From the NCBI GenBank assembly GCA_903916765.1, contig CAIWXV010000125.1:1-32008 (forward strand): a DNA stretch of 32,008 bases, read 5' to 3'. The stretch's first letter is position 1, and each line of letters opens with the position of its first letter. The position numbers and the translations under genes were made by a program. Below are positions 367 to 28,877 of the stretch, one piece after another. A model generated the notes under the pieces. The model was not told the DNA's origin. It saw nothing but the letters and a program-made list of their open reading frames with translations, and ran no database searches. The DNA is from an uncultured Dehalococcoidia bacterium. Its GTDB lineage: Bacteria > Chloroflexota > Dehalococcoidia > Dehalococcoidales > Fen-1064.

Positions 367-717
367 TGGTGGAGACGGGGGAGAGTTGAACTCCCCGTCC
401 AGAAAAGATTGCGCAGAGTTTACTACAAGCTTAGTCAGCTCTTTGTTTCGCCCGGTAAGCCTCTGCAGACCGAGTATTACCGGGTCAGCCGATATTTTTT
501 TCACTGCTCTTATCGGCGTCAGAATAGTGGCACCTCAACTTTATTTCACCTACTCCCAACCCGTTGAGGTGGGGTCAGGGTAGATGTGTCGCCTTTATTT
601 AGGCGGCAACCAAAACTGGTTCTTTGGCAATTATTTTTTGCCACCGGTTTTACGAGGGTGATGGCACCTCGGCTTGCAACTCTGTAGCTAACCTCCCCTG
701 TCGAACCACGCGTCCCC
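367..717 (-). ncRNA. ssrA: tmRNA (transfer-messenger RNA)
   Basis: The minus strand starts GGGGACGCGTGGTTCGACAGGGGAGG...GTTGCAAGCCGAGG and ends GGACGGGGAGTTCAACTCTCCCCCGTCTCCACCA. The 7-bp acceptor stem GGGGACG/CGTCTCC pairs with one G-U, and CCA is encoded. Pseudoknot PK1 and a tag ORF ending VAA-stop are recognisable. It lies next to smpB. Confidence 0.95.
599..628 (-). other. tmRNA proteolysis-tag reading frame, predicted tag AKEPVLVAA-stop
   Basis: GCC AAA GAA CCA GTT TTG GTT GCC GCC TAA, starting 10 nt after the 3' arm of PK1 (TGCCA 662-666 pairs with TGGCA 639-643). Confidence 0.8.
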
Positions 718-754: not shown

Positions 755-1219
755 TTATTTACCCTTGATGGTTCTCGTTTTGATGACTCTATCAAGATTA
801 CGCTTGGTCTCACGCTGGGTAATCGTTTCGCGTTTATCGTAGAGTTTTTTACCCTTGGCAAGTGCGATTTCCAGTTTGGCGTAACTATCTTTAATATACA
901 GTCGGATGGGTATCAGTGTAAAGCCTTTTTCCCTTGTCTGTCCCATCAGTTCGCGGATTTGCTTACGGTGCAGGAGCAATTTTCGGGGTCGGATGGGGTC
1001 ATGTCCCAGATAACTGGCAGCATCGTAGCGGGCAATGTGAGCATTAATAAGCCAGAGTCCACCCTGGTCGGGGCGGACATAGGCATCTCCCATGCTGATA
1101 TTTCCTGCTCGTATTGATTTTATTTCCGAGCCGGTAAGCACAATGCCGGCCTCCACAGTTTCCATGATGTGGTATTCGTGATAGGCCTTACGATTCGTGG
1201 CAATAGTTTTAATCGTCAT
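755..1219 (-). CDS. smpB: SsrA-binding protein SmpB
   Basis: 154 aa: ATNRKAYHEYHIMETVEAGIVLTGSEIKSIRAGNISMGDAYV...LLLHRKQIREL...LIPIRLYIKDSYAKLEIALAKGKKLYDKRETI. Classic SmpB. Confidence 0.97.
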   Translation of the reverse strand: MTIKTIATNRKAYHEYHIMETVEAGIVLTGSEIKSIRAGNISMGDAYVRPDQGGLWLINAHIARYDAASYLGHDPIRPRKLLLHRKQIRELMGQTREKGFTLIPIRLYIKDSYAKLEIALAKGKKLYDKRETITQRETKRNLDRVIKTRTIKGK

Positions 1220-1287: not shown

Positions 1288-1320
1288 AAAATAAAAAGAG
1301 GGGGTTTGGGACCCCCTCTT
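1288..1320 (-). terminator. Rho-independent terminator of the hdr operon
   Basis: Minus strand AAGAGGGGG-TCCCAAA-CCCCCTCTT followed by TTTATTTT: 9-bp stem plus U-tract, 24 nt past the stop codon at 1344. Confidence 0.92.
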
Positions 1321-1343: not shown

Positions 1344-2492
1344 TTAAATCGAGTCGGCTACCAATTCGACGATTTCCTTAACTTCCAGAACACTGCCCTT
1401 ATCCATACTTAAAACACTATCCTCGAAGTTAGCCATGCAGTAAGGACAAGCCACCGCCAGCGTATTTGCACCGGCATCGATTGCCTGCTGGATGCGGATA
1501 TCGGAGAAGCGTTCGCCTCTCTTGGTATCTGCCCAGATTCTGCCGCCGCCGCCACCACAGCATAAACCGTTTTCGCGGTTATTCAGCATTTCCACCAATT
1601 CCACGCCGGGAATGCTCTTCAGGACGTTACGCGGTTCATCATAGACATTATTGTGTCTGCCCAAGTAGCAGGAATCGTGCAAAGTGACCTTCTTTTTGAA
1701 CTCTTTAGAGGGTTTGATTTTCTTATCTTTAATCAGCTCGGCAACAAATTGGGATGAATGTACCACTTCGAATTTAGCGCCAAGCTCAGGATACTCATTC
1801 TTGAGGGTATGGTAGCAATGTGGCGAGGAAACAACTATTTTGGTGACTCCTGCTTTATTGAAGGCATCGGCGTTGCTCCGGGCGAGAGTCTTGAATAGTT
1901 CTTCATTTCCGGTCTTGCGGATGCTCTCTCCGCAACAACTCTGTTCATTACCGAGAATGCCGAAGCTGACGCTGGCCTTTTCCATGATTTTTGTCATGGC
2001 TTTGGCAACACGAATCAGTTTGGGGTCGTAAGAATTGAAACAGCAGGGGAAGAAAAGAACATCCATTCCTTTGGTAAATGGTTTGATGCCCATGTCTTTT
2101 GCCCAATCCGTGCGTTTTTCTCTTGCCTCACCCTGCGGATTGCCGACACTGGAGATATTTTTAGCTGTAATGCGTACCGAATCAGGCACGCCTCCGATGC
2201 CCATTTCCACAATCGCGCGACGGTAGGATTTCCAAACATCGATGATGCCCACACCACGCGGACAGCGGTCGACACACCACTTGCAGGTAACACACAACCA
2301 CATATCCTCGCTCTCGAAATCGGGTAAGCCGAGTTGTCCCTGGTGCATTGTCTTACGTACCGGGAAGCTTCTGACCAAATTCCATGGACATGTGGCAGTG
2401 CAGGTCCCGCACTGATAACACAACTTACAGGTTTCGCCGCCTTCTTCTTTGATAATGTCTATTGCGTCCTGAAACGGTCCTACTGCTTGCAT
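1344..2492 (-). CDS. HdrD-like Fe-S protein: N-terminal [4Fe-4S] ferredoxin region plus two CCG domains
   Basis: CKLCYQCGTCTATCP and CVTCKWCVDRCPRG, followed by CCG modules (FFPCCFNSYD...SCCGES...SPHC and DSCYLGRHNNVYDEPR...CCGGGGG...CPYC). Confidence 0.88.
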   Translation of the reverse strand: MQAVGPFQDAIDIIKEEGGETCKLCYQCGTCTATCPWNLVRSFPVRKTMHQGQLGLPDFESEDMWLCVTCKWCVDRCPRGVGIIDVWKSYRRAIVEMGIGGVPDSVRITAKNISSVGNPQGEAREKRTDWAKDMGIKPFTKGMDVLFFPCCFNSYDPKLIRVAKAMTKIMEKASVSFGILGNEQSCCGESIRKTGNEELFKTLARSNADAFNKAGVTKIVVSSPHCYHTLKNEYPELGAKFEVVHSSQFVAELIKDKKIKPSKEFKKKVTLHDSCYLGRHNNVYDEPRNVLKSIPGVELVEMLNNRENGLCCGGGGGRIWADTKRGERFSDIRIQQAIDAGANTLAVACPYCMANFEDSVLSMDKGSVLEVKEIVELVADSI

Positions 2493-2516
2493 CGTAACTT
2501 CCCTCTCTATACTACT

Positions 2517-3383
2517 CTAAATAAGATTCTGTGCTTTTAATATGCCGATGGGGCTATTGATATGTCTCTTCAACCATACATCATATTCTTTTTTCTCTGC
2601 GCCCAGTGCCAATCCCAGCAATTCACTGAAATGTAGAATCGGGACATGTGTACCACTCTGCCTTGTATCCAGATTTGCCATGCAGAGCGGACAGGCAGTG
2701 ACGATACCGACAGCGCCGGCATCGGTTGCCGCTTTGCAGATGTCGGTTGCCAGCTTTACCACGATATCCATTCTTGCGAGGAGGAGACTGCCACCACAAC
2801 ACTCCACCTTATGCGTGTATTCCACTGGTTCAGCGCCGATAGCACTGAGCAGGTTATCTATCATCTGCGGGTTTTCGGGATCGTCGAAATTGGTAATTTC
2901 AGGTGGTCTCACCAGATAACAGCCGTAATAAGCGGCAAGTTTCAAGCCTTTTAATGGTTTCCTGACACGCTTTTTAATTTCATCCAAGCCTACTTCATTG
3001 GCGAAAATATCAACCAGATGTTTGACTTCAACATTCCCGCTGTAAGGCATATCAATCAGTTTCTCGACCTTATTTCGTAACTCATCGTTAGCTTTGAGGT
3101 CGTGATTGGTCTGTTTGAATCTGAGGAAGCAGGCGGCGCAGGCGACTGCCACATTATTCAGTTTGGCTTTTTCTGCGATTGCCAGATTACGCGCTGGTAA
3201 TGCCAGCGAAAGCTCGTAATTGGTGCTGTGTCCTGATGAAGCGCCGCAGCAACTCCAATCCTCTAGCTCTACCAGTTCCACGTCAAGCAGTTTTGCCGTA
3301 ACTTCGATGGATAAATTGTATTCTTTCGCCGTGGTTTCCAGTGAACAGCCGGGGTAATAGCCGTACTTTATTGTTTTTCCCAT
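2517..3383 (-). CDS. HdrB-like CoB--CoM heterodisulfide reductase family subunit B
   Basis: YGYYPGCSLETTAKEYNLS...WSCCGASSGHS...ACAACFLRF and YYGCYLVRPPEI...VECCGGSL...ACPLCMANLD: two complete CCG motifs. Confidence 0.93.
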   Translation of the reverse strand: MGKTIKYGYYPGCSLETTAKEYNLSIEVTAKLLDVELVELEDWSCCGASSGHSTNYELSLALPARNLAIAEKAKLNNVAVACAACFLRFKQTNHDLKANDELRNKVEKLIDMPYSGNVEVKHLVDIFANEVGLDEIKKRVRKPLKGLKLAAYYGCYLVRPPEITNFDDPENPQMIDNLLSAIGAEPVEYTHKVECCGGSLLLARMDIVVKLATDICKAATDAGAVGIVTACPLCMANLDTRQSGTHVPILHFSELLGLALGAEKKEYDVWLKRHINSPIGILKAQNLI

Positions 3384-3386
3384 ATT

Positions 3387-3971
3387 CTAACCTGTCTTCT
3401 CGGATAATTCGAAGATACGTTTAATGTTGGCTTGTCCTTTAATATGCGGAGGTAAAATTGCCAGTTTGCCTCTGGTGAACATATTGATGCCCAGCTTGAT
3501 AAGACTGGGTAATTCCTTGATTTTAAAAAGGTCGCCGCTCTTAACCATATAGAACATAATCAAACCAAGCTCATAGGTCTTGCCCCCGAATTTCACCATC
3601 GATAGGAAGGTGTTATGGAACAAGGGGAGGTGTGTCGAGTCCTTGCGGTTTTCTTTGAGTGCCATTTCTCTCAGTTGGTCCATTACGAGCACAATCTCGA
3701 CGTTATTGGGGCAGCGGGTGGCACAGGTTTCGCAACTGAGGCAAATCCAGAAAGTGTTGCTATTCAATACCCTGTCTTTCAATCCCAATTGAACCATTCT
3801 CAGTAATTGGTGAGGTGGATAGTCCATCTGATAAGCGCTCGGACATCCGGAGCTACAGGCGACACACTGGTAACACCGCTCCAGATGAGCGTGGCTTTTG
3901 TCCATCACTTCTTTAGCGAAGGACGGGTCGCACTTCTCTTTACCTTTATTGGTAACCAGTTGAGTCGTCAT
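3387..3971 (-). CDS. HdrC-like 4Fe-4S subunit
   Basis: CYQCVACSSGCPSAYQMDYPPHQLLRMVQLGLKDRVLNSNTFWICLSCETCATRCPNNVEI. Start overlaps the previous gene by 4 nt (ATGA). Confidence 0.92.
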   Translation of the reverse strand: MTTQLVTNKGKEKCDPSFAKEVMDKSHAHLERCYQCVACSSGCPSAYQMDYPPHQLLRMVQLGLKDRVLNSNTFWICLSCETCATRCPNNVEIVLVMDQLREMALKENRKDSTHLPLFHNTFLSMVKFGGKTYELGLIMFYMVKSGDLFKIKELPSLIKLGINMFTRGKLAILPPHIKGQANIKRIFELSEKTG

Positions 3972-5098
3972 TTCTCTCCTATCTGCTCGAATTCCTTCTC
4001 TTTGAAAGCAGTAGCGGGTAGAGATTCTTCCAAACTGCGCCCCGGCACATAACTGAATAGTTCCTGAACTTCACTGCCGGCGAGCTGGAAGATTTTGAGC
4101 AGTGGTATATCATTAGGGCAGGCTTCTTCGCAGGCACCACAGCCCACGCAGGAGTTGCCCATATGATTCATTCTGGTAAGGTGGAAAAGGAGGGTATCGG
4201 AGGGCATTCTGAGAGCGCCTTTCTTTTCTGCTTGTCTGAGATACCGGTCTGCATCCAATTCAAAGGTCGGTGAAATGAAGAAGCATTCCCGACAGTAGCA
4301 TACCGGGCAAGCCTGCCGACAATTCTGGCACTTGATACACTGTGCAAAAACTTTGCTGAGTTTCTCGATACCGCCTATTTCCCGTTTGGTTTTCTCGAAG
4401 AATTCCTTACGTCTTTCTTTGATTTCACCGGCGAATTTAGTGATGGCTGTTTGCCGTTTCTGTGCTAAATCGCTATCGATTTCCAGACTCATGCCGGCTT
4501 TACTCAAGATTTCTTCACCCTGAGCTGAATTTGCTTGAATAAGAATTTGTTTGCTCGGGTCTAATCCCAGCATTCCGATTGTAATATCGGCGGTTAACGG
4601 ATAAGGATATTCGCAAATTTGGCAACCGGTTCTCAACATCGTATCTTCAGCCCATTGGAAGCCGGCTTTTACGAAGTCGTCCGATTTCTTTTCAGCGGCG
4701 AATTTGGGGTAATTATTAACAGCGTAGGCACCGGGGCAATCGATACCGATGAGAACGAGTTTATCCAGCTGTACCTGTTTCAACTTTGCCAGTTCGATTA
4801 AGGCTCTCATTTCGCAAGGGCGTAGTACTACGGCAGTTTTTCGGTCAACAGTGGTGAGCCGGGTTATCGATTGGATGAGACGGGCGGAATTTACCGGCAT
4901 CACCGGTGCAAAAACATCGGCTTTGTCGACAAAAACAGCTTTGGTCACAAGTGCCTGCACAACATTCGTACCAGCCGGATGAGCCAGTGGTACGAGCATT
5001 GCATCGATTGTCTTTTTATTGAACAGCTCTTTCAGGAAGCTATTAACAGCTTCCCGTATCTTGCCGTCTTTTACTGATAATGTCACACTCTTTGTCAT
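3968..5098 (-). CDS. FdhB/FrhB-like (coenzyme F420 hydrogenase/dehydrogenase beta subunit family) Fe-S flavoprotein
   Basis: VVLRPCEMRALIELAKLKQVQLDKLVLIGIDCPGAY, CIKCQNCRQACPVCYCRECFF and CVGCGACEEACPNDIPL. Confidence 0.87.
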   Translation of the reverse strand: MTKSVTLSVKDGKIREAVNSFLKELFNKKTIDAMLVPLAHPAGTNVVQALVTKAVFVDKADVFAPVMPVNSARLIQSITRLTTVDRKTAVVLRPCEMRALIELAKLKQVQLDKLVLIGIDCPGAYAVNNYPKFAAEKKSDDFVKAGFQWAEDTMLRTGCQICEYPYPLTADITIGMLGLDPSKQILIQANSAQGEEILSKAGMSLEIDSDLAQKRQTAITKFAGEIKERRKEFFEKTKREIGGIEKLSKVFAQCIKCQNCRQACPVCYCRECFFISPTFELDADRYLRQAEKKGALRMPSDTLLFHLTRMNHMGNSCVGCGACEEACPNDIPLLKIFQLAGSEVQELFSYVPGRSLEESLPATAFKEKEFEQIGEK

Positions 5099-5109
5099 TC
5101 TTCCGTCTC

Positions 5110-5544
5110 CTATATCGCCCAGTCGTTTGCCATTGAACTAGGTCCCTGTTTCCTGGTCTCTTCCGTAATCTGGTTCATAAATTTGGCGAACTCGGGACCT
5201 TCACTGGCACTAATCCAGCGTGCCCAGACACGATTATCATCCAACCCCAGCGATTTAAAGATTTGTTTTAACATTGCGACACGGCGCCGTGCTTTGTAGT
5301 TACCGGAAACATAATGACAGTCACCCGGGTGACATCCGCCCATCATTACACTATCGGCACCGGAAAGTAGAGCTTTAATCATATATACCGGGTCGACAGT
5401 TCCGCTGCACATCACTCTGATAGGGTGGACGTTAGGTGGATATTGTGCTCTGGTAGTGCCGGCGAGGTCGGAAGCAGCGCCGGTGCACCAGTTACACAGG
5501 AACCCGATTATCTTCGGTTCGAATTGTTCTTTTGTTTCAGCCAT
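5110..5544 (-). CDS. MvhD-like hydrogenase iron-sulfur subunit
   Basis: FLCNWCTGAASDLAGTTRAQYPPNVHPIRVMCSGTVDPVYMIKALLSGADSVMMGGCHPGDCHYVSGNYKARRRV; matches the MvhD family. Confidence 0.93.
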   Translation of the reverse strand: MAETKEQFEPKIIGFLCNWCTGAASDLAGTTRAQYPPNVHPIRVMCSGTVDPVYMIKALLSGADSVMMGGCHPGDCHYVSGNYKARRRVAMLKQIFKSLGLDDNRVWARWISASEGPEFAKFMNQITEETRKQGPSSMANDWAI

Positions 5545-5570
5545 ATTGTTCTCCTTCTATCGAGTGGTAA

Positions 5571-8500
5571 CTAAAAAGCGGCATCAATCATAGAGAAGAC
5601 CTGCTTATCTTTCAAGCTCCTCAGTTTAGCAGCACCGTTCGGACATGCGGTAGCACAGATGCCGCAACCCTGACAGAGTATCTCTTTCACTACTGCCACT
5701 TTATTGTCTTCATCGAGATATCTTGCTTCGAATGGGCAAACTTCAACGCATATTCCGCAACAACTGCATCTGTGGGCATCCACCTCAGAAATGACACGCC
5801 CCGACTTTATCTTGTCGCGTGATAGTAAGTTAGCAGTGCGCTGAGCGGCGGCTTGAGCCTCAATGATTTTCTCCCCAAGATTTCTGGGAGCATTTGCCAG
5901 TCCGGTAATGAAGATACCGTCGATGATCGTATCGACAGGGCGGAATTTGGTGTCTACTTCCTTGAAGAATCCGTCTGCAGTCAGTTCCAGCGAGAGCATT
6001 TTTGCCAGTGTTTGGTTATCCTCTGCAACGTAACCGGTGCTCAGAACGAGCAAATCGGTTTCTATCTCCAGCTTGCCGGGCAATCCAGGGTCATTTACTG
6101 CCACTGTCAGAGTCCGGTTACTGGTATTTACCTCTGGCTCTTTACCTGCTTCGTAACGTTGAAAGAGGACACCTGCCTCTCGGGCTTTAGTATAATTCTG
6201 TTCTTTGAAACCGTAGGTCATAATATCCCGGTTCAGGATGAAGACCTGAGTATCCGGGCTTTTTTCCTTTATCTTGATGGCATTGGCGATTGCTTCGGAA
6301 CAGCAGACACGGTTGCAATAGGGGTGTGCATTATTCCGTGAGCCGACGCATTGAATCATCACCACTGTCGACGCTTTGTCTAATTTCCATTCAGCCAGTC
6401 GTTTCTGGAGTTCATGCTGGGTGATGACTCTCTTATCTTTACCATAGAGGTATTCGGTAGGCTGGTAGTCTTTAGCACCGGTGGCGATGATAATCGCACC
6501 ATGATTTGTCTCGGCGATTTTGCCATCGGTTGATTTTATCCGTGCTTTGTAATTACCTGCATTTCCACTAATGCCAATCACTTCGCTATTCAGATTGATT
6601 TTAATTTTCAGGTTGTTATTAACCTTTTCTATGATACCTTTAACAAATGACTGCGGACTATCGAAATAAATTTGACGGCTATGTCCGCCGAGTTCACCGG
6701 TTCGCTCTACGATATCGACTTCAAAACCCTGCTCTGCGAGGAAAAGGGCAGAAGTTAATCCAGAGATGCCGCCGCCGACTATCAAACATTTTGGGGTAAC
6801 TGCCATCACCTGTGCCGTAAGGGTTTCCTGAGTTCTAAGACGGTCAACTGCCATTGCCAGCAGGTTTTGCGCTTTGGCGGTTGCTAAATCCCTCTTATCT
6901 TTATGCACCCAGGCGAGTTCCTCTCTGAAATTGACCAATTGCCACATCGAGGCATCGATGCCGACTTCATTTAGTGTATCGTTGAACAAGCGGTAGTAGT
7001 GGTAGGGAGCGCAAGCTGCCATGATGACGCGATTAGCGCCTGTTTTGGTTACAGACCGTTTTATTTTCTCCAGAGTTTCCTTTTGACAGAGAAAACCTAC
7101 ATCCTCGACTGTTACCACATTCAGCAACTTCTTAGTAGATGCTAATGTTTTTTCAAAATCTACGACAGCGCCGATTTCTTCACCGCAATGACAAACAAAG
7201 ATAGCGATTTTAGCCTCTTCATCCTGTTCTGCTTTATGTTCGTGCTCAGACGTTTTAGTTTCTGACTGGTGCCGTGCAGATGAGATAACGGTGGCGGCTT
7301 CACAGGCGGCAGCACTGGATTTGAGTACGGTTTCACAAATGTCCGAAGGTCCCGATGCTGACCCGCTAACAAAGATACCATTATGGGAGGTACGTGTCGG
7401 GTAGAATTCCGGCGTTTCCACGAATCCCCACTGGTTAGTATGGATGTTCAAAATTTTTCCAAGTTCTGAAAGATGAGGTGAAGGACACTGTGCGGCAGAC
7501 AGCACAACCATATCATATTCACTGCTGATTGACTTACCGTCTTCGGCACGTGCCAGCAGGAATAGGTTCTTCGATTTCGGGTTTTCCCGGATACGTGAAA
7601 CACGGCATCTCGCAAATTTCACTCCGGAATCTTGTGCCCGGAGGTGGTAGCGGTAGTAATCCTTACCGAAGGCGCGGATGTCCATGTAAAAAATGGTAAC
7701 TTCCGTATCGGGATACTGTTTTTTGAGCATGATGCTCTCTTTGAGAGCATACATACAGCAGACTTCACTGCAATAGTTGCGTTCCGTGTCTCTGCTTCCG
7801 ACGCATTGCAAAATGGCGATTTTATTTGGTGCCTTTTTATCGGAAGGTCGGAGAAGTTCGCCTCCGGTCGGTCCCGTATTTGCCAGTAAGCGTTCCAGTT
7901 GGATATTGGTCAAAACATTAGCGTAGCGGCCGTATCCATATTGTCCTATCCGGGAAACATCGAATTCGTTTGAACCGCTGGAAACTATCACTGCTCCGAC
8001 GGCTAGTTCACGTTTCGTATCCGGCATATTAAGTGCGATTGCCTTTGTTGGGCAAATAGTCACACACTTGCCGCATTTAGTACAGTTTTCATGGTCTATG
8101 GAGTAGACGTTGGGGACTGATTGCGGATTGCGGACGTAGATTGCTTTGCGTTTCTGCAAACCGCGGTTGAATTCATCATCAACTTCGACGGGGCATACTC
8201 CGGCACATAGGCCGCACGCAGTACATTTTTCTTCAATTACCCAGCGCGATTTAATATTTAGCGTTGCTTTGAAATTACCGGGTTCGCCAGTGAGTTTAGT
8301 GACACTGGAATTGGGTATAAGCTCGATATTAGGGTGTGATAGGTCGCGACGGAGACAGAACTGAGAGCATTCGTCGCGGTTGAATACCGGTAATAGTTTA
8401 CATAATTCACACTGGTTATCGGGGAACCATGTCTCGAGCTGGTAGAGTGTTCCACCAATGCCGGGACTGCGGTCGGTAAGATAGACCTTAAAGCCCGATT

Positions 8501-8576
8501 CGGCAAGGTCGAAGGCAGTTCTGATGCCTCCTACCCCGCCGCCAATCACTAAAACAGCTCCAACTTTCTCTTGCAT
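5571..8576 (-). CDS. Double-length HdrA-like FAD/Fe-S protein (two HdrA-type flavin modules plus C-terminal 2x[4Fe-4S])
   Basis: 1001 aa with two Rossmann motifs (VLVIGGGVGGIRTAFDLAESG; CLIVGGGISGLTSALFLAEQG), two HdrA cysteine signatures (CVGSRDTERNYCSEVCCMYALK; CVGSRNNAHPYCNRVCCSEAIA), and a C-terminal CSCCGICVEVCP/CQGCGICATACP ferredoxin. Confidence 0.92.
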   Translation of the reverse strand: MQEKVGAVLVIGGGVGGIRTAFDLAESGFKVYLTDRSPGIGGTLYQLETWFPDNQCELCKLLPVFNRDECSQFCLRRDLSHPNIELIPNSSVTKLTGEPGNFKATLNIKSRWVIEEKCTACGLCAGVCPVEVDDEFNRGLQKRKAIYVRNPQSVPNVYSIDHENCTKCGKCVTICPTKAIALNMPDTKRELAVGAVIVSSGSNEFDVSRIGQYGYGRYANVLTNIQLERLLANTGPTGGELLRPSDKKAPNKIAILQCVGSRDTERNYCSEVCCMYALKESIMLKKQYPDTEVTIFYMDIRAFGKDYYRYHLRAQDSGVKFARCRVSRIRENPKSKNLFLLARAEDGKSISSEYDMVVLSAAQCPSPHLSELGKILNIHTNQWGFVETPEFYPTRTSHNGIFVSGSASGPSDICETVLKSSAAACEAATVISSARHQSETKTSEHEHKAEQDEEAKIAIFVCHCGEEIGAVVDFEKTLASTKKLLNVVTVEDVGFLCQKETLEKIKRSVTKTGANRVIMAACAPYHYYRLFNDTLNEVGIDASMWQLVNFREELAWVHKDKRDLATAKAQNLLAMAVDRLRTQETLTAQVMAVTPKCLIVGGGISGLTSALFLAEQGFEVDIVERTGELGGHSRQIYFDSPQSFVKGIIEKVNNNLKIKINLNSEVIGISGNAGNYKARIKSTDGKIAETNHGAIIIATGAKDYQPTEYLYGKDKRVITQHELQKRLAEWKLDKASTVVMIQCVGSRNNAHPYCNRVCCSEAIANAIKIKEKSPDTQVFILNRDIMTYGFKEQNYTKAREAGVLFQRYEAGKEPEVNTSNRTLTVAVNDPGLPGKLEIETDLLVLSTGYVAEDNQTLAKMLSLELTADGFFKEVDTKFRPVDTIIDGIFITGLANAPRNLGEKIIEAQAAAQRTANLLSRDKIKSGRVISEVDAHRCSCCGICVEVCPFEARYLDEDNKVAVVKEILCQGCGICATACPNGAAKLRSLKDKQVFSMIDAAF

Positions 8577-8585
8577 GGGAACTCC

Positions 8586-10574
8586 CTATTTAGCTAAACC
8601 AGCAAAGTCTTTGGTCGCTTCGTCGATGACATCTATCAATTGTTTATGTGTGAAGTTCTTTAATTGCATTGCTTTAGAAGGGCAGGTCGCCGCACAGGCG
8701 CCGCAACCCTTACAAATGGCTTCGTTAACCTTCGCCAGTTTGGTTTTAGGATTCACTTCGATAGCACTGTAAGCACAAATCGATTCACAGACGCCACAGC
8801 CGGCACAAACCTCTTCATCGACAAAGGCAGTAGCGGATTCTATGTCTACTCTGCCTTTGCTGATTAATTCGAGTGCTCTGGCGGCGGCGCCGGTTGCCTG
8901 TGCTACAGTATCGCCGATATCTTTAGGTCCATGACAGCACCCGACGGCGAAAATGCCATCGAGCATGGTACCTACCGGGTCGAGTTTGGGATGGCGTTCC
9001 AGGAAGAAACCGTCAGCACTGCGTCCCAGTAAGAAGGCACGTGATATGTCTGCGGTATCCGCTCGCGGTTTCATCGCAACACTCAGAACAACCATATCTA
9101 CTGGCACTCTTATCATCGAGCCCAGTAAACTGTCTTCGCAGACGACTACCAGTTTGCCTTTTTCTTCATCGGTTATCGTTTCGGTAGAAATCTGTCCGAT
9201 TTTGCCGCGGATAAAATTCACACCTTCTTCAGAAGCCTGTTTATAGAATTCTTCATGTCCTTTGCCGAAACAACGCATATCGATATACATCTGATACACA
9301 TTGGTATCAGCACCGAGTTGCTGTTTGATGAGTCGGGCATATTTCAAACTGTACATACAACAAACCCGTGAGCAGTACTGATGATAATTCTGGTCGCGGC
9401 TCCCGACACAATGGGCAATTGCTACGCTCTTGGGAGTAGCGCCGTTTTTCATCACAATCTTACCGCCGGTGGGTCCGTCAGGATTGAGCATACGCTCAAA
9501 TTCAGGGCTGGTGACCACATTATCAATTTTACCGTAGCCCAATTGTGTGATGGGTGAGGGGTCGAAGGTATCATAGCCGGTGGAGATAATGCAGGCACCG
9601 GCATCTATTTCTATCTTTTTATCTTCCTGTTTGAAATCGATAGCTTTAGTGGGACAAACTGATTCGCATGCTTTACAACTGCCATCGATGAAGTATTTAC
9701 AATTTTTTCGGTCGATTACAGGAATCTTCGGGACGGCTTTAGAAAAAGGTATATAGATTGCCTTCCGTTTTCTCATCCCATAGTCGAATTCACTCGGGAC
9801 TTCTACCGGACATTTTGCCCAGCATTCCCCGCAACCGTTACATTTAGTTTCATCGACACAGCGGGCTTTTTTATTGATAGTAGTCTTGAAATTCCCGATG
9901 TACCCGCCAATCTCGGCAATCTCGCTGTAAGTCAATAATTCGATGTTAGGGCTGGTTTTCACCATTTCCATCCTGGGTATAAGCAGTTCTTCGGTGGAGT
10001 CGAGATCAGGGAATGTTTTGCCTAGTTGTGCCATACGGCCGCCGATGCTGGGTTCTTTTTCCACCAGATAAACTTTCTCGCCGGCACTGGCAATCTCCAG
10101 CGCTGTTTGAATACCGGCAATCCCACCGCCGACAATGAGTGTATTCGGATTGACGGGTGCCCATTTGGCTTCCAGAGGATTACGATAGAGCACACGTTTC
10201 ACTCCTGCCGCAATGAGTGCCATCGCTTTTTCTGTCGCTGCTACTCTATCATGGCTGTGTACCCAACTGCTTAGTTCGCGGATGGTTGCCATTTCACAGA
10301 GATGCGGATTCAAGCCTGCTTCGGCACAGGCGGCTCGGAAGGTACGCAAATGCAGTGTAGGAGAACAGGAACACACCAGCACACCATTCAGTCCTAATTC
10401 TTTGATATCTTTTTTTATCATGTCCTGGCCGGGGTCGGAGCACATAAATGAGTAATGCCGTGCCACGACTACATAGGGGAGGGTAGCGGCATAATCGGCT
10501 GCTTTGGCAACATCCAGATAGCCAGCGATGTTAGACCCGCAGTGACAGAGATAAACTCCGATTTTCCTTTTCAT
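8586..10574 (-). CDS. HdrA-like subunit, canonical length
   Basis: 662 aa: VYLCHCGSNIAGYLD N-terminal module, TLIVGGGIAGIQTALEIASAG, HCVGSRDQNYHQYCSRVCCMYSLKYA, C-terminal CAGCGVCESICAY/CKGCGACAATCP. Confidence 0.94.
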   Translation of the reverse strand: MKRKIGVYLCHCGSNIAGYLDVAKAADYAATLPYVVVARHYSFMCSDPGQDMIKKDIKELGLNGVLVCSCSPTLHLRTFRAACAEAGLNPHLCEMATIRELSSWVHSHDRVAATEKAMALIAAGVKRVLYRNPLEAKWAPVNPNTLIVGGGIAGIQTALEIASAGEKVYLVEKEPSIGGRMAQLGKTFPDLDSTEELLIPRMEMVKTSPNIELLTYSEIAEIGGYIGNFKTTINKKARCVDETKCNGCGECWAKCPVEVPSEFDYGMRKRKAIYIPFSKAVPKIPVIDRKNCKYFIDGSCKACESVCPTKAIDFKQEDKKIEIDAGACIISTGYDTFDPSPITQLGYGKIDNVVTSPEFERMLNPDGPTGGKIVMKNGATPKSVAIAHCVGSRDQNYHQYCSRVCCMYSLKYARLIKQQLGADTNVYQMYIDMRCFGKGHEEFYKQASEEGVNFIRGKIGQISTETITDEEKGKLVVVCEDSLLGSMIRVPVDMVVLSVAMKPRADTADISRAFLLGRSADGFFLERHPKLDPVGTMLDGIFAVGCCHGPKDIGDTVAQATGAAARALELISKGRVDIESATAFVDEEVCAGCGVCESICAYSAIEVNPKTKLAKVNEAICKGCGACAATCPSKAMQLKNFTHKQLIDVIDEATKDFAGLAK

Positions 10575-13333
10575 ATTGTCCCCGCATTATTAGCTTTGCT
10601 TACCTCAGCTTTTTTAGCCTTTTCACCGCGTGAAACCAGTACGATTGCTTTGGCAGCGGCGCCGATTGCCTGCGAGACTGTATCAGGAATATCTTTGGGT
10701 CCCTGATTACAACCGGCTATGAAAATACCGTCGGTCAGTGTTCCCATCGTGTCCAGTTTGTAATGTTTTTCTTGGAAAAAACCATCGGCGCTGTGCTGGA
10801 TGCCGAATAATTTGCCTACATCAGCCGCATCGGAACGCGGTTCTACGGCGACATTTAAAATAACCATATCTACCGGCAATCTAATCATTGAGCCCAGTAG
10901 AGTGTCTTCACAGACCACTATCAACTTGCCTTTTTCTTCGTCACCTTGGGTGATATCGGTAACTTGTGCTACTTTCCCGCGGATGAAATTAATACCTTCA
11001 TCGGAAACACGCTTGTAGAATTCCTCATAGCCTTTGCCGAAACATCGCATATCGATGTAACACTGGTAAACATTGGCTCCGGTTTTCTCTCTGATGAGGT
11101 GAGCGTGTTTCAAGCCGTACATACAGCAGATACGCGAGCAATATTCATGGTAATTGCGGTCACGACTACCGATGCAGTGGATAATCGCCGCACTCTTCGG
11201 TGTCGAGCCGTCTTTCAGTTGGATGTGTCCTTCTGTGAAGCCTGTGGAACTGACCATACGTTCGAATTCGAGGCTGGTATAAACATTGGGATATTTCCCG
11301 TAACCAAATTGAGTCATCGGCGTGGGGTTGAGTAAATCATAACCTGTGGTAACGATAATTGCCCCCACATTCAGTTCAACATCTTCGTCTTTCATTTCGT
11401 GATGAATTGCCTTGCGTTCACAGACAGCTACGCAGGCAAAACATTCCGAACAAACGCCGCAGTTAAGACATCGTTTTGCTTCTTCTACGGCGGATTTCTC
11501 ATCGAAACCAAGCTCTACTTCGCTAAAGCCTTTTCTATCTTTCGGCTCTACTGCCGGCATTTTGGCTCGGGCTTGTTTTACAGCACCCTCTTTATCGACA
11601 TCTTTGACACGTACCCTCGGTTCAGGTCTACCTGCTTTAAGATCGGTGCCAGTGAGGTATCGGTCAATCGAGATAGCGGCTTCTTTACCCTGAGCAACCA
11701 CGTGGATGACATCGGCGGGACCTGTAACGATATCGCCACCGGCGAAAACGCCTTTGATACTGGTTTGCATTGTTACTGGGTCAGCTTGTACGGTACCACC
11801 CTTACTTAGTTCCAGATTACCGGGCAATTTGTTTTTGTCTACTGTTTGCCCGATCGCCATGATGACGTTATCGACATCGATGTTAAACTCGGATCCTTTG
11901 ATGGGCACAGGACGGCGTCGGCCGCTGGCATCAGGTTCACCGAGTTCCATCTTAATACATTGAATACCTTTTACCCACCCGTTTTCAGTAATGACTTTGG
12001 TCGGATTGGTCAGGATGGCCAGCTTGATGCCTTCATGCTCGACTTCTTCGACTTCTTCTGCAGCAGCGGGCATTTCGGCGCGGGAGCGGCGATAAATAAT
12101 AGTTACCTCTTTCGCTCCTATACGCAAAGCGACTCTAGCAGCGTCCATAGCGGAGTTACCGCCACCGACGACGGCGACTTTCTGCCCTATTTCTACCTTC
12201 TCACCCGCATTGGCTCTCCTCAGGAAATCGAGGGCGTCCATCACGCCTTTACTATCTTCGTCGGGGATTCCCATCTTCTGACTGCTACCGGCACCGGTGG
12301 CGAGGTAAATTGCTTCATAACCCTGATTGAACAGGTCTTCCAGTTTATTTACAGGGGTGTTGAGCTTAATCTCTACACCGAGTTCCTGAACATAGCCGAT
12401 TTCGTTATCGACGATATTATTGGGCAGGCGGTATTCGGGGATACCGTAGCGTAATAGCCCGCCGACTGCCGGAGCGGCTTCAAAAACCGTTACTGCGTAG
12501 CCCATCCGGACAAGGTCGTAAGCGCAGGCAATACCGGAGGGACCGGAACCAACCACAGCGACCTTTTGCTTTTTTGTGATAGGTAGCGGTTGTGTCTTTT
12601 CCCTGCCGTTTTTCATTTCGTAATCAGCCATAAAGCGTTTCAGGAAGCGGATGGCAATCGGTTCGTCGACTTTACCTCGTTCACATTCTCCTTCACAGGG
12701 ATGAGTGCAGACACGTCCGCAGACACCGGCAAAGGGCATCGTCCTTCTTAAAACTTCGAGGGCTTCTTTGAATTTACCCTGCGAGATTAAAGCGATATAG
12801 CCTTGTGCATTGACGCCGGCAGGACAGGTAGCGCGACATGGCGGCAGACCCCTCTTATCGATTGTGAAGACATTGGGGACGGCTTGCGGGAAAGGACGAT
12901 AAACCGCTTTTCTCTCTGCCAAACCCATCTGCCATTCGCTGGGATGAGAGACCGGGCAAACCTTGGCACACTCACCACAAGCCGTGCAGTTGCTGATATC
13001 GACAAACTTCGATTTTTTGCGAACGGTTATTTTGAAATTACCGGCATAGCCGGAGACCTTTGTTACTTCGGAACAAGTGAGAAGGTTGATGTATTTATTT
13101 GATCCTACCTGACTCATTTTGGGGGTGCCGATACAGGCGGCGCAGTCCATTGTCGGGAAGGTCTTATCCAACTGCATCATTCGCCCGCCGACTGTGGGTA
13201 GTCTTTCTACCAGATAAACCTGATGTTCGGAATCAGCGACTTCCAGAGCCGCTTGCATGCCGGCAATTCCGGCGCCAACTACGAGCACCGCAGATTTATT
13301 GGACGCATCACGAAGTCCGGATTTATCCTCCAC
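10571..13333 (-). CDS. HdrA-like protein with an inserted GltD/NfnB-type pyridine-nucleotide oxidoreductase module
   Basis: HdrA N-part (VLVVGAGIAGMQAALEVADSEHQVYLVERLPTVGGRMMQLDKTFP), then GltD-like (GLPPCRATCPAGVNAQGYIALISQGKFKEALEVLRRTMPFAGVCGRVC...VAVVGSGPSGIACAYDLVRMG...VAVVGGGNSAMDAARVALRIGA...GVFAGGDIVTGPADVIHVVAQG), then HdrA again (IHCIGSRDRNYHEYCSRICCMYGLKHAHLI). GTG start with upstream AGGAGG. Confidence 0.93.
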   Translation of the reverse strand: MEDKSGLRDASNKSAVLVVGAGIAGMQAALEVADSEHQVYLVERLPTVGGRMMQLDKTFPTMDCAACIGTPKMSQVGSNKYINLLTCSEVTKVSGYAGNFKITVRKKSKFVDISNCTACGECAKVCPVSHPSEWQMGLAERKAVYRPFPQAVPNVFTIDKRGLPPCRATCPAGVNAQGYIALISQGKFKEALEVLRRTMPFAGVCGRVCTHPCEGECERGKVDEPIAIRFLKRFMADYEMKNGREKTQPLPITKKQKVAVVGSGPSGIACAYDLVRMGYAVTVFEAAPAVGGLLRYGIPEYRLPNNIVDNEIGYVQELGVEIKLNTPVNKLEDLFNQGYEAIYLATGAGSSQKMGIPDEDSKGVMDALDFLRRANAGEKVEIGQKVAVVGGGNSAMDAARVALRIGAKEVTIIYRRSRAEMPAAAEEVEEVEHEGIKLAILTNPTKVITENGWVKGIQCIKMELGEPDASGRRRPVPIKGSEFNIDVDNVIMAIGQTVDKNKLPGNLELSKGGTVQADPVTMQTSIKGVFAGGDIVTGPADVIHVVAQGKEAAISIDRYLTGTDLKAGRPEPRVRVKDVDKEGAVKQARAKMPAVEPKDRKGFSEVELGFDEKSAVEEAKRCLNCGVCSECFACVAVCERKAIHHEMKDEDVELNVGAIIVTTGYDLLNPTPMTQFGYGKYPNVYTSLEFERMVSSTGFTEGHIQLKDGSTPKSAAIIHCIGSRDRNYHEYCSRICCMYGLKHAHLIREKTGANVYQCYIDMRCFGKGYEEFYKRVSDEGINFIRGKVAQVTDITQGDEEKGKLIVVCEDTLLGSMIRLPVDMVILNVAVEPRSDAADVGKLFGIQHSADGFFQEKHYKLDTMGTLTDGIFIAGCNQGPKDIPDTVSQAIGAAAKAIVLVSRGEKAKKAEVSKANNAGTI

Positions 13334-16279: not shown

Positions 16280-17467
16280 TTATTTTAACCCGTATTTCTT
16301 TGCAGTCTTGTGGAAACCCTCGAGTGCGCCTGACAAAGTGCGGTCGTCGGTACAATAAGAAATGCGGAAATGTCCCGGTCCCCCAAAGCCGACACCTGGC
16401 ACTGTCAGCACCAATGCTTCTTGCAAAGTCCGCACAAAAGCGACATCATCCGCAATCGGTGACTTGGGGAACATATAGAAAGCTCCCTGAGGCGTGACCA
16501 GCGAATACCCCATTTCTACCAGATTTTTGTAGAGGAAATCGCGCTTTTTCCTGTAGTCATCGATTGAAACGGTAACGTCCTGAAGAGAGCGGACAATTCT
16601 CTGCATCAGTGCCGGAGCATTAACGAATCCCAGTGTCCGGTTGCAATAGATAAACCCATCAATCAATTCCTGTTTCTGCGGGCACTCCGGATGGATGGCG
16701 ATGTAGCCGATGCGCTCGCCGGGCAAAGCCAGGTCTTTAGAATGAGATGTGGCGATAATTGTTCTCTGATGAAATAGTAAAGGCGAGGGGTATTTCAATA
16801 CATCGTAAATCAGCTTACGGTAAGGTTCGTCGCTGATAAGATAAATCTCCGTGCCGTACCGTGATTCTTTCTTACGCAGAATTTCCCCGATTTGCCCCAT
16901 CAGTTTTTCACTGTAAATCACGCCGGTAGGATTATTCGGCGAATTAACGATAATTGCCCTAGTTTTCTTGCTGATAGCTTTCTCCAGAGCGTCGAGTTTT
17001 GGCTGAAATTGCTCATCGGTCGGGACTATTTTAGGAACGCCGCTGTGATTATCGACGTAGTTCAAATATTCCACAAAATACGGTGCAAAAATGATGGTTT
17101 CTTCGCCTGCATTGAGAATGGTTTTCAAAATGACATTCATTGCCCCGGCAGCACCGCAGGTCATTACAATGTCTCCGGCGGTCAATTTCAAGCCTGTTTC
17201 TTTGGATAGCTGAGTGGCAACTGCTGCTCTGGTATCCAAGTAACCGGCATTCTCCATATAACGGTGCATGCCCAGTGCAGGATATTCTGCCAGTTTCTTT
17301 AACTCACGAACAAATTCCGCCGGCGGTTCGATAATCGGATTACCCAACGTCAGGTCGAAGACTTTGTCCGCGCCGTATTTCTTTTTCAGGATGTTGCCTT
17401 CGTCGAACATCCGTCTTATCCATGAACCCTCTGCCATACCCTTGCGGATTTTATCCGACATGAACAT
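16280..17467 (-). CDS. PLP-dependent class I/II aminotransferase
   Basis: VFDLTLGNPIIEPPAEFV...VMTCGAAGAMNVILKTILNAGEETIIFAPYFVEY...IIVNSPNNPTGVIYS...ISDEPYRKLIYD...SHSKDLALPGERIGYIA. Start moved to ATG 17467 (MFMSDKI), preceded by AAAGGAAA; the ORF track starts at 17494. Confidence 0.93.
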   Translation of the reverse strand: MFMSDKIRKGMAEGSWIRRMFDEGNILKKKYGADKVFDLTLGNPIIEPPAEFVRELKKLAEYPALGMHRYMENAGYLDTRAAVATQLSKETGLKLTAGDIVMTCGAAGAMNVILKTILNAGEETIIFAPYFVEYLNYVDNHSGVPKIVPTDEQFQPKLDALEKAISKKTRAIIVNSPNNPTGVIYSEKLMGQIGEILRKKESRYGTEIYLISDEPYRKLIYDVLKYPSPLLFHQRTIIATSHSKDLALPGERIGYIAIHPECPQKQELIDGFIYCNRTLGFVNAPALMQRIVRSLQDVTVSIDDYRKKRDFLYKNLVEMGYSLVTPQGAFYMFPKSPIADDVAFVRTLQEALVLTVPGVGFGGPGHFRISYCTDDRTLSGALEGFHKTAKKYGLK

Positions 17468-18056
17468 TTTTGATTTCCTTTGCACCCAAATCAAATGCGG
17501 TATTATTGAGCTTCAAAAACTTCGACGGCAGATGCTGGGCAATGACTTCTTGCCATGTCTCCAATTTAAACGACAGGAAAGCAGCGAGGCACCCCAGCAT
17601 AAAGATATTCAACGTTTTGACATTTCCTAGTTCTATCACCCGTTTGGTGCCTTCGACAAAATAAATATGTTCAGTGCGTTGTTTTAAGATTTGATTCACT
17701 TCTTCATTGCTGGGGTACTTATCTATACCTAGATTGACAGAGAGCGGCGGTAGAGCGTGATTATTAATGATAACAATAGCACCGGGCTTTAAGTACCTTG
17801 CCCAGCGAACTCCCTCCAATTTTTCGAAGGCAAGGAGAATATCGACCTCACCCTCTTTAATTAGCGGTGAAAAGACTTTTTCAGAAATACGGACATGGCT
17901 GATGACACTACCGCCTCTCTGTGCCATCCCTAGGGTATCGGTCTTTTTAACATCGAAACCGGCGGCAAGTGCGACCTCACTGACGATGTCGCTTGCCAGA
18001 ATATTCCCCTGACCGCCGACTCCGGTAATAAGCAGATCTATTTTAGGTGTATTCAT
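17451..18056 (-). CDS. iorB: Indolepyruvate ferredoxin oxidoreductase, beta subunit
   Basis: MNTPKIDLLITGVGGQGNILASDIVSEVALAAGFDVKKTDTLGMAQRGGSVISHVRIS. The start at 18056 gives an ATGA overlap with iorA; the ORF-track start is 28 codons too far upstream. Confidence 0.92.
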   Translation of the reverse strand: MNTPKIDLLITGVGGQGNILASDIVSEVALAAGFDVKKTDTLGMAQRGGSVISHVRISEKVFSPLIKEGEVDILLAFEKLEGVRWARYLKPGAIVIINNHALPPLSVNLGIDKYPSNEEVNQILKQRTEHIYFVEGTKRVIELGNVKTLNIFMLGCLAAFLSFKLETWQEVIAQHLPSKFLKLNNTAFDLGAKEIKNVHVG

Positions 18057-19870
18057 TTCTTTGCCTCTGCTTTTGCTTGAGACATTGGCCCGATTGCCTG
18101 TTTGGGACAAACCTGTTGGCAGATGGTGCAGCCGGTACACATTGTCACGTCGATAATGGGCTGTTTACCTTCGGTTTGAATTGCCGGACAACCGATGAGC
18201 AAGCAGATACCGCACTGATTGCACTTTCCGGTATCGATTTTACGCGGTACATCATGTTTCGGAACGCGCACGGCACAAACGCCGCGTACGATAATTACGG
18301 AAAGTTCCTGCCTTTCCAGCGAGTCTTTAACTGCGGTTCTAATCTCTTTAATATTGAAAGAGTCGACTATTTTCAGGTATTTAACGCCGATTCCTTTAAT
18401 CAGATCTTCCAGCACCACTTTTCCGACTCCCTGTCCCTGTACTGAAATACCTGTACCGGGATGTTCCTGATGTCCGGTCATTGCCGTGGTGCCGTTATCG
18501 AGAATTACGATGGTAATTTTGCTTTGGTTATAAACGGCGTCCACCAGAGGTGTAATACCTGAATGCAGAAAAGTAGAGTCCCCGATGACCGCTACTATCT
18601 TGTTACGCGAGCCTGCTTTTTCCATACCGATGGCATGTCCGATACTGGCGCCCATACAGGCGGTAGTATCCATCGCATTCAATGGTGGATAAGCACCGAG
18701 TGTATAACAACCGATGTCGCCGGTAATGGTCAAGCCGGATTCTTTCGGTATCTTATCCTTAGCACCGGGTAATTTGAGGCGTTGCCCCATGCTGGCGAGG
18801 ACATAAAATAAGCCGGAATGTGGACATCCGGAACACAGGAGAGGCGGGCGTTTGGCCAAATCGGTGCTTACGGTTATCTTTTCCCGCGGTGGTGTATTTA
18901 TTAACTCCATTTTTCTGCCGACAGATTCGATAATGTCGGTATTTAATTCCCCGACACGCGGGATAAACTGCTTACCATCGACTTTAATACCCATTGCCTT
19001 GATATGCTCTTCTAGGAATGGGTCAAGTTCTTCTATTACCAGAATCCTATCGACCTGTGACGCAAACTCCCTGATGAGTTTTTCCGGCAGGGGATAGGTC
19101 ATTCCTAATTTCAAAAATGAAGCTTTGGGGAAAACTTCGCGGGCATATTGGTATCCAATGCCGTTAGCAATGATACCTAGGCTCCGTTCCCCCGGTTCGA
19201 TTTTATTAAAGGGGAAAGACTCAGCAAAAGCAGCGAGTTTCACCATCCGTTCTTCCATCAAGGGGTGTCGGGTACGGGCATTAACCGGCAACATTACGTA
19301 TTTCTGAACATTGCGTGAGAAACCTGGTTTCCTTTTTTGCATAACATTAATTTCTTTGACATCTACTAATGATTTTGAGTGAGAGATGCGGGTAGTGGTG
19401 CGTACCATCACAGGGGTATCTAGTTGCTCACTGATTTCAAAGGCATAAGCCATCAGGTCATAAGCTGACTGGCTATCGGTTGGCTCCAGAATGGGAACTT
19501 TTGCCAGTTCGGCAAAATGCCGGTTATCTTGCTCACCCTGTGAACTATGAATACCGGGGTCATCTGCTGAAATCAACACCAAGCCTGCATTGACACCGGT
19601 GGTCGCCACTGCTAAAAACGGGTCGGCGGCGACATTTAACCCCACCTGTTTCATCGAGACCAGTGCCCGTGCACCCTCATAACAGGATCCCATTGCCACT
19701 TCCATCGCCACTTTTTCATTGACGGACCATTCGGCGTAAATATCCTTGAAGTGAGCGAGAGCTTCCATAATTTCCGTGCTGGGAGTTCCAGGGTAAGCGG
19801 TCGCAACCGCGATGCCGGCATGATAAGCACCTAGTGCCAGAGCCTCGTTTCCTGAGAGTAGTTTTTTCAT
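18053..19870 (-). CDS. iorA: Indolepyruvate ferredoxin oxidoreductase, alpha subunit
   Basis: LLSGNEALALGAYHAGIAVATAYPGTPSTEIMEAL...LCSGCPHSGLFYVL...GDIGCYTLGAYPPLNAMDTTACMGASIG...CNQCGICLLIGCPAI...CTGCTICQQVCPKQAI. Confidence 0.95.
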   Translation of the reverse strand: MKKLLSGNEALALGAYHAGIAVATAYPGTPSTEIMEALAHFKDIYAEWSVNEKVAMEVAMGSCYEGARALVSMKQVGLNVAADPFLAVATTGVNAGLVLISADDPGIHSSQGEQDNRHFAELAKVPILEPTDSQSAYDLMAYAFEISEQLDTPVMVRTTTRISHSKSLVDVKEINVMQKRKPGFSRNVQKYVMLPVNARTRHPLMEERMVKLAAFAESFPFNKIEPGERSLGIIANGIGYQYAREVFPKASFLKLGMTYPLPEKLIREFASQVDRILVIEELDPFLEEHIKAMGIKVDGKQFIPRVGELNTDIIESVGRKMELINTPPREKITVSTDLAKRPPLLCSGCPHSGLFYVLASMGQRLKLPGAKDKIPKESGLTITGDIGCYTLGAYPPLNAMDTTACMGASIGHAIGMEKAGSRNKIVAVIGDSTFLHSGITPLVDAVYNQSKITIVILDNGTTAMTGHQEHPGTGISVQGQGVGKVVLEDLIKGIGVKYLKIVDSFNIKEIRTAVKDSLERQELSVIIVRGVCAVRVPKHDVPRKIDTGKCNQCGICLLIGCPAIQTEGKQPIIDVTMCTGCTICQQVCPKQAIGPMSQAKAEAKK

Positions 19871-28823: not shown

Positions 28824-28849
28824 TACTGATGGTATATAAAAGGAGCGAG

Positions 28850-28877
28850 TCCCGACTTTCATCGGGATGGCATTGCG
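28850..28877. repeat. Repeat remnant/hairpin TCCCGA-CTTTCA-TCGGGA just upstream of the radical SAM start codon
   Basis: TCCCGACTTTCATCGGGATGGCATTGCG. Same family as CCACTTTCGTCGGGATGG at 16248-16266 and CCGACTTTCGTCGG at 15670-15683. Confidence 0.6.

Follow-up and report, generated by a model that had tools for sequence, protein, structure and literature searches.

A conserved eight-gene Hdr operon of uncultured Dehalococcoidales with complementary HdrA proteins, a candidate electron-bifurcating complex

A 32,008-base contig (G000:C125) of an uncultured member of the Dehalococcoidales, analysed here over its entire length as the window, carries eight intact open reading frames on its minus strand (1344-13333, intergenic spacing -4 to +26 nt), which encode three HdrA proteins (HdrA-GltD, HdrA and a double HdrA) along with MvhD, FdhB-like, HdrC, HdrB and HdrD-like proteins. 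We propose, with a probability of roughly 0.6, that the products of this Dehalococcoidales operon assemble into one soluble complex, HdrA-based and electron-bifurcating or confurcating, and that its HdrA parts should function only in pairs. The host genome (1.37 Mb, 149 contigs, 96.6% complete) has uncultured Dehalococcoidales metagenome-assembled genomes as its nearest named relatives. All eight genes were assigned to families with Pfam and NCBIfam, plus PDB sequence matches, and these agree with the eight identities given by a first-pass annotation made from the DNA letters. Its reading of one operon is likewise supported; the genes are tightly spaced, and a terminator-like stem-loop lies on the operon strand. 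Both ATGA overlaps that it listed are real and 4 nt long; the one at 3968-3971 stands, but the upstream one lies at 10571-10574, not 10568-10574. The operon comprises:

10571..13333, minus strand: P0001, type III HdrA, 920 aa, GTG start (Pfam, NCBIfam, PDB sequence matches)
8586..10574, minus strand: P0002, type I HdrA, 662 aa (NCBIfam, PDB sequence match)
5571..8576, minus strand: P0003, type II (double) HdrA, 1001 aa (NCBIfam, PDB sequence match)
5110..5544, minus strand: P0004, MvhD/FlpD, 144 aa (Pfam)
3968..5098, minus strand: P0005, putative FdhB-like adaptor, 376 aa (Pfam, PDB sequence match)
3387..3971, minus strand: P0006, HdrC, 194 aa, two [4Fe-4S] motifs (Pfam, NCBIfam)
2517..3383, minus strand: P0007, HdrB, 288 aa (Pfam, NCBIfam)
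1344..2492, minus strand: P0008, HdrD-like (HdrC-HdrB fusion), 382 aa (Pfam, NCBIfam)
1296..1320, minus strand: Rho-independent terminator-like stem-loop 3' of the operon, a 10-bp stem followed by TTTATTTT

The three HdrA proteins counted by the first-pass annotation are indeed three genes, but the HdrA cores number four. With residue numbers (Cys194/197, E356, K409) following 5odc HdrA, P0001 aligns in two blocks (residues 16-161 with 146-291 and 628-905 with 293-570), separated by a GltD/NfnB-type NAD(P)H-FAD-[4Fe-4S] module at about 163-628 that sits inside the inserted-ferredoxin domain, the arrangement that marks a type III HdrA. P0001 keeps Cys194/197, E356, K409 and HA3, and lacks both the N-terminal cluster domain (N-domain) and the C-terminal ferredoxin domain. 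P0002 aligns with 5odc HdrA over its full length and retains the N-domain, an uninterrupted inserted ferredoxin domain with eight cysteines, E356, K409, HA3 and the C-terminal ferredoxin domain; its position 197 is Glu instead of Cys (Asp or Glu among orthologs). P0003, rightly called a double HdrA, matches 5odc_A twice in permuted order, with residues 8-378 aligning to 146-510, 453-626 to 2-175 and 858-1001 to 505-650. Its N-half keeps Cys197, an inserted ferredoxin domain carrying two clusters, E356 and K409, and is without N-domain and C-terminal ferredoxin. Its C-half keeps the N-domain, the C-terminal ferredoxin and the HA3 cysteines, has neither Cys197 nor inserted ferredoxin, and carries Q in place of E356 and A in place of K409.

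These losses are complementary: one partner has an N-domain and no Cys197, the other the reverse, as in a heterodimeric HdrA pair. The complementarity of P0001 and P0002 in N-domain, Cys197 and C-terminal ferredoxin recurs in each ortholog that could be read at these positions. The double HdrAs examined range from this Dehalococcoidales family to Jordarchaeia; in all of them the N-half lacks the N-domain and the C-terminal ferredoxin and has Cys197 where readable (two truncated copies could not be assessed for it), and the C-half shows the reverse, with no inserted ferredoxin. The complementary losses lead us to predict an obligate P0001:P0002 heterodimer, in which P0001 would donate Cys197 as the fourth ligand of the N-terminal [4Fe-4S] cluster of P0002, and a second HdrA pair on the single chain of P0003. 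In a type I HdrA from Jordarchaeia (L037:13945-15810), an in-frame TGA, likely a selenocysteine codon, falls exactly at the Cys197 position.

In other Dehalococcoidia, a long type III HdrA unites all these features on a single chain, and P0001 and P0002 both fall inside the clade of such proteins (support 100/100), so that duplication followed by complementary loss would explain the two proteins. They could not be taken as firmly supported sister duplicates, the sister branch receiving 90/91 in one tree and 75/64 in another. A search at E<=1e-150 hit relatives of the type III HdrA in 94 of the 393 Dehalococcoidia genomes, with some of the hits covering the GltD part only, so such proteins are common in bacteria. 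Five complete genomes (L104-L108, in G126, G141, G254, G265 and G181), probably of the Dehalococcoidaceae and likely Dehalogenimonas, contain a two-gene pair of an HdrD-like protein and a long type III HdrA (1117-1131 aa).

E356 and K409 are proposed markers of bifurcation (PMC12054007, PMC9430772). An FAD-type core, the HA3 CX(n)CX3CC motif, E356 and K409 are all present in three of the four HdrA cores, and both residues persist in P0001, P0002 and the N-half of P0003 in every ortholog where readable. The P0003 C-half keeps HA3 but has lost both residues, and across the family its E356 is replaced by Q together with a change of K409 to A, T, I or V. Double HdrAs outside the family mostly keep both residues, the exceptions being L066 (P and R) and L059 (D and K).

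G005, G006, G007, G009, G010, G012 and G013 all have these eight genes on one strand and in identical order, with protein identities of 60-86%. The first-pass annotation had called for such a gene-neighbourhood survey; the order is identical in 7/7 relatives with a complete region, all belonging to one family of uncultured Dehalococcoidales, and the arrangement is not due to chance. The MvhD gene of the G012 locus and the HdrD gene of the G009 locus were found to be present by tblastn, and partial loci at contig ends in G001, G008 and G011 are consistent with the eight-gene order.

By PDB sequence comparison, P0001 has in its GltD module a close match to NfnA-type and Nfn large-subunit structures, and the pyridine-nucleotide site of the module is kept (GGGNSAMDAAR...YRRS), which we read as favouring NADPH. 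Since the Moorella HdrA with the same inserted module oxidises NADH (NADH:viologen activity of 190 U/mg, quoted in PMC9430772), we leave the cofactor as NAD(P)H. Entry through GltD is the likeliest pyridine port of the complex, in line with the modular Hdr-type machine with a plausible NAD(P)H port envisaged by the first-pass annotation. In G006, the gene in the P0001 slot (L056:16421-17800) encodes 459 aa and has no GltD, the rest of the operon being identical in order. Compared with same-genus members, the TrxR halves of this protein are 85-86% and 85% identical and its two ferredoxin-domain parts only 60% and 40-43%, suggesting not a clean excision but an exchange, in which an uninterrupted ferredoxin domain took the place of the ferredoxin/GltD module. 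We infer this replacement from the shared slot and genus, with an assembly error as a residual possibility; as the flanking TrxR halves are kept, it would place GltD at the ferredoxin exchange port. The gene tree does not serve as proof of GltD loss, because grouping G006 with its own genus was not rejected (p-AU 0.31).

Invariant cysteines were also tabulated across orthologs for the remaining subunits. P0004, the sole MvhD copy in the host genome, has five, and the HdrB protein P0007 has two complete CCG motifs (C13-CC45/46-C82xxC85 and C155-CC195/196-C231xxC234); together with HdrC, these are the companions expected of an HdrABC-MvhD system. P0008 combines two [4Fe-4S] motifs with one complete CCG motif (C275...C352) and one degenerate motif in which SPHC replaces CxxC. 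P0005 has an FrhB_FdhB_C domain and [4Fe-4S] cysteine motifs. Outside the family, sets of double HdrA, MvhD and FdhB-like protein carry other modules, namely an FdhA-like molybdopterin protein in G016, a 683-aa gene, not typed, in the same slot in G027, and an AsrA-type Fer4_22 protein and/or an NAD-binding FNR-type protein in G051 and G055. From this variety, the FdhB-like protein would seem to serve as an adaptor that connects MvhD to whichever input a lineage has.

As the first-pass annotation had stated for the window, there is no hydrogenase or formate catalytic subunit at the locus: neither MvhAG nor FdhA was found as an electron input in the window or in the loci of the seven full-operon relatives. 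No molybdopterin oxidoreductase was found in the whole host genome, which excludes formate as a donor there; several relatives possess such enzymes, not beside the operon. The NiFe enzymes of the host lie on other contigs, a HupL-like protein on C28 and, on C20, an enzyme set that includes NAD-binding and Fer4_22 domains and that we would liken to the NAD(P)-linked group 3b. The host genome also lacks a Complex1_51K protein, and thus NuoF/HydB and probably RnfC, and has an NfnAB-like pair on C70. Among candidate acceptors and partners, DsrC trisulfide was discarded, with DsrC in 0/15 genomes, as was a reductive dehalogenase, none being found in the family members searched.

In the single complex that we favour, the GltD module of P0001 would be the entry or exit of NAD(P)H, presumably NADPH rather than NADH, and ferredoxin would be handled by P0002 and the N-half of P0003, whose inserted-ferredoxin domains are uninterrupted. 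MvhD would dock at the C-terminal ferredoxin domains of P0002 and/or P0003, with P0005 on MvhD as an Fe-S adaptor, not an F420 enzyme. Electrons would pass from HdrC to HdrB, where a disulfide-type acceptor is the expected substrate of the two CCG sites, and the HdrD-like protein would form a second outlet, partly degenerate. A fuller version of this complex would contain two HdrA pairs, both obligately asymmetric, and three flavins competent for bifurcation, and would couple NADPH with ferredoxin and with two different CCG (disulfide-type) outlets in a bacterium without F420, NADH-linked Nuo or Rnf; its GltD module would be an exchangeable port, replaceable in evolution by one for ferredoxin. 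We put this forward only tentatively.

Several points weigh against a single bifurcating complex. There is only one hdrB, one hdrC and one mvhD for four HdrA cores, which makes the stoichiometry uncertain. The locus was absent or not found in three same-genus genomes (G002, G003 and G004) and hence is not essential to the lineage. The one structure model built, with AlphaFold for P0005, had low confidence (pLDDT 51.8) and was left unused. Additionally, the Sporomusa Hdr-type complex has one E/K-type flavin, and co-reduction of NAD(P) or ferredoxin was not observed for it (PMC9430772).

HdrA types I-III have been defined; among archaea with a methane metabolism, type III is reported from ANME-1 and Bathyarchaeota alone (PMC12054007). 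HdrA paralogs of anaerobic methanotrophic (ANME) archaea include NfnB inserts, tandem and fused HdrA with complementary Cys197 and N-domain, and HdrD-like companions, with FdhB-only clusters in ANME-1 (Chadwick et al. 2022, PMC9012536). Paired HdrA proteins that complement each other in the loss of Cys197 and N-domain are published for these archaea (PMC9012536, PMC12054007). An HdrA interrupted by GltD has been described in Moorella and one with two TrxR domains in Sporomusa (PMC9430772), and Hdr-MvhD-MetVF and Hdr-FdhBA have been reported in marine Chloroflexi (PMC5736913). With all three HdrA types already known, the operon consists of known modules and is not a new kind of enzyme. The term 'undescribed' used by the first-pass annotation is therefore an overstatement. 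For the eight-gene operon in Dehalococcoidales, no description was found in the open-access literature searched, and as a novel assembly of existing modules it seems to be unreported. Neither of the findings that were to refute the first-pass annotation emerged, namely an identical characterised operon, or homologues always beside hydrogenase or formate dehydrogenase genes with a single HdrA.

Like the ANME-1 and ANME-2 HdrA clusters (HdrA 3-6, 9-13; PMC9012536, PMC12054007), the operon has three HdrA architectures, complementary Cys197/N-domain loss, and HdrBC, HdrD, MvhD and FdhB companions. Unlike them, it unites all three HdrA types with MvhD, FdhB-like, HdrBC and HdrD proteins in a bacterial, F420-less host, and has no FdhA-like Molybdop protein in the cluster. 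The N-domain half comes first in the ANME fusions of PMC9012536 and second in P0003, and the pyridine site of P0001 GltD reads GGGNSA/YRRS, while NAD is what PMC12054007 favours for the type III HdrA of archaea. The Moorella thermoacetica HdrCBA-MvhD-MetVF system shares the GltD interrupting the N-terminal HdrA part, the second HdrA half, HdrC, HdrB and MvhD, but there GltD-HdrA and the second half form one 1487-aa chain; the operon has them as separate genes, lacks metVF, and has an additional double HdrA, FdhB-like and HdrD-like protein. P0003 resembles the Sporomusa ovata HdrA (two TrxR domains) in keeping E/K in one core only and in a C-half without inserted ferredoxin, but its N-half has a two-cluster inserted ferredoxin domain, and metVF again is not in the operon. 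With methanogen HdrABC-MvhAGD/HdrABC-FdhAB (5odc, 7bkb, 8rvu) the operon shares MvhD, HdrC, HdrB, the full-length match of P0002 and the homology of P0005 to FdhB, but it differs in its four HdrA cores and in the absence of F420 and of any hydrogenase or formate catalytic subunit. Jordarchaeia/Freyarchaeota double HdrA clusters (L037, L041) also hold HdrC, HdrB, HdrD, double HdrA, MvhD and type I HdrA in one run, but at ~39% identity and without a type III HdrA or FdhB-like gene; the TGA-containing HdrA mentioned above belongs to L037.

Among the alternatives, the HdrA units may be co-transcribed and yet belong to distinct enzymes, at least two in number: P0001:P0002 could work with HdrD, for instance, and P0003-MvhD-FdhB-like with HdrCB. 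This possibility deserves attention even if we doubt it. Other Dehalococcoidia do have HdrD adjoining a long type III HdrA, and double HdrA occurs with MvhD, FdhB-like and HdrB or HdrC without type III (L069; a strand-separated set in L059), but the strict gene order, the 4-nt overlaps of P0001/P0002 and FdhB-like/HdrC, and the one MvhD gene for two C-terminal ferredoxin docking sites argue for one assembly. A non-bifurcating conduit, whose HdrA cores merely relay electrons among NAD(P)H, ferredoxin and thiol/disulfide, would fit the lack of NAD(P) or ferredoxin co-reduction in Sporomusa (PMC9430772) and the loss of E356 and K409 in one of four cores; the retention of both residues in the other three cores across readable orthologs makes it unlikely.

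We consider it rather improbable that the operon is the electron supply of a Moorella/Sporomusa-type methylene-tetrahydrofolate reductase whose acceptor, MetFV, is encoded elsewhere. Moorella and Sporomusa place HdrCBA-MvhD next to metVF, with a GltD-inserted or double HdrA (PMC9430772), and the host has, besides its only MvhD, which lies in the operon, a MetF-MetV fusion on another contig (538 aa, L128:3655-5271, G000:C89) beside response-regulator-like genes. However, in no relative does the operon include or adjoin the metV and metF genes that characterise Hdr-type methylene-tetrahydrofolate reductase operons. In addition to its complete operon, G007 carries, as a distinct locus, a Moorella-like cluster made up of hdrC, hdrB, a 1488-aa type III double HdrA, metF and metV (L129, G007:C97), and G005 and G009 have HdrA-MetV neighbours with similar spacing, indicating that two systems coexist.

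F420H2 was among the substrates suggested by the first-pass annotation, and bifurcation dependent on it has been proposed for the type II HdrA-FdhB clusters of ANME. For this operon, such bifurcation through the FdhB-like P0005 is strongly disfavoured: P0005 matches methanogen FdhB (6e-35), and ANME clusters join type II HdrA, HdrBC, MvhD and FdhB, sometimes with type I HdrA and HdrD (PMC12054007), but F420 ligase was found in none of 21 genomes, with methanogen and Haloferax positive controls detected, and P0005 gave no match to FrhB_FdhB_N (PF04422) at E up to 10 (73.7 bits for a methanogen FdhB fragment control), making F420 very unlikely as a substrate. P0005 also lacks a GGAVTA-type motif, diverging from FdhB at that stretch, and the FAD/F420-binding FdhB, cellular F420 and Molybdop gene of ANME type II HdrA-FdhB-Molybdop systems have no counterpart here.

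Downstream of the operon, the window contains:

755..1219, minus strand: SmpB, also downstream of the operon in G007
367..717, minus strand: transfer-messenger RNA (tmRNA)

Elsewhere in the window, an aminotransferase adjoins a two-gene 2-oxoacid:ferredoxin oxidoreductase (16280-19870; POR gamma, and a thiamine pyrophosphate enzyme with POR_N and Fer4), probably of the indolepyruvate type and a source of reduced ferredoxin near the operon. Two neighbouring radical SAM proteins are encoded at 27624-29813, downstream of a LepA gene.

Unusual HdrA proteins are known mostly from uncultured ANME archaea, where heterodimeric HdrA has been proposed; we know of no test of that proposal. The HdrA pairing logic of these archaea recurs here in Dehalococcoidales without F420. 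The G006 operon, with no GltD in the same slot, represents a natural experiment on the role of GltD, and the occurrence of type III HdrA with hdrD in complete, probable Dehalococcoidaceae genomes means that a cultured organism may be available. The operon would bear on the balance of NAD(P)H and ferredoxin in Dehalococcoidia that lack Rnf and Nuo.

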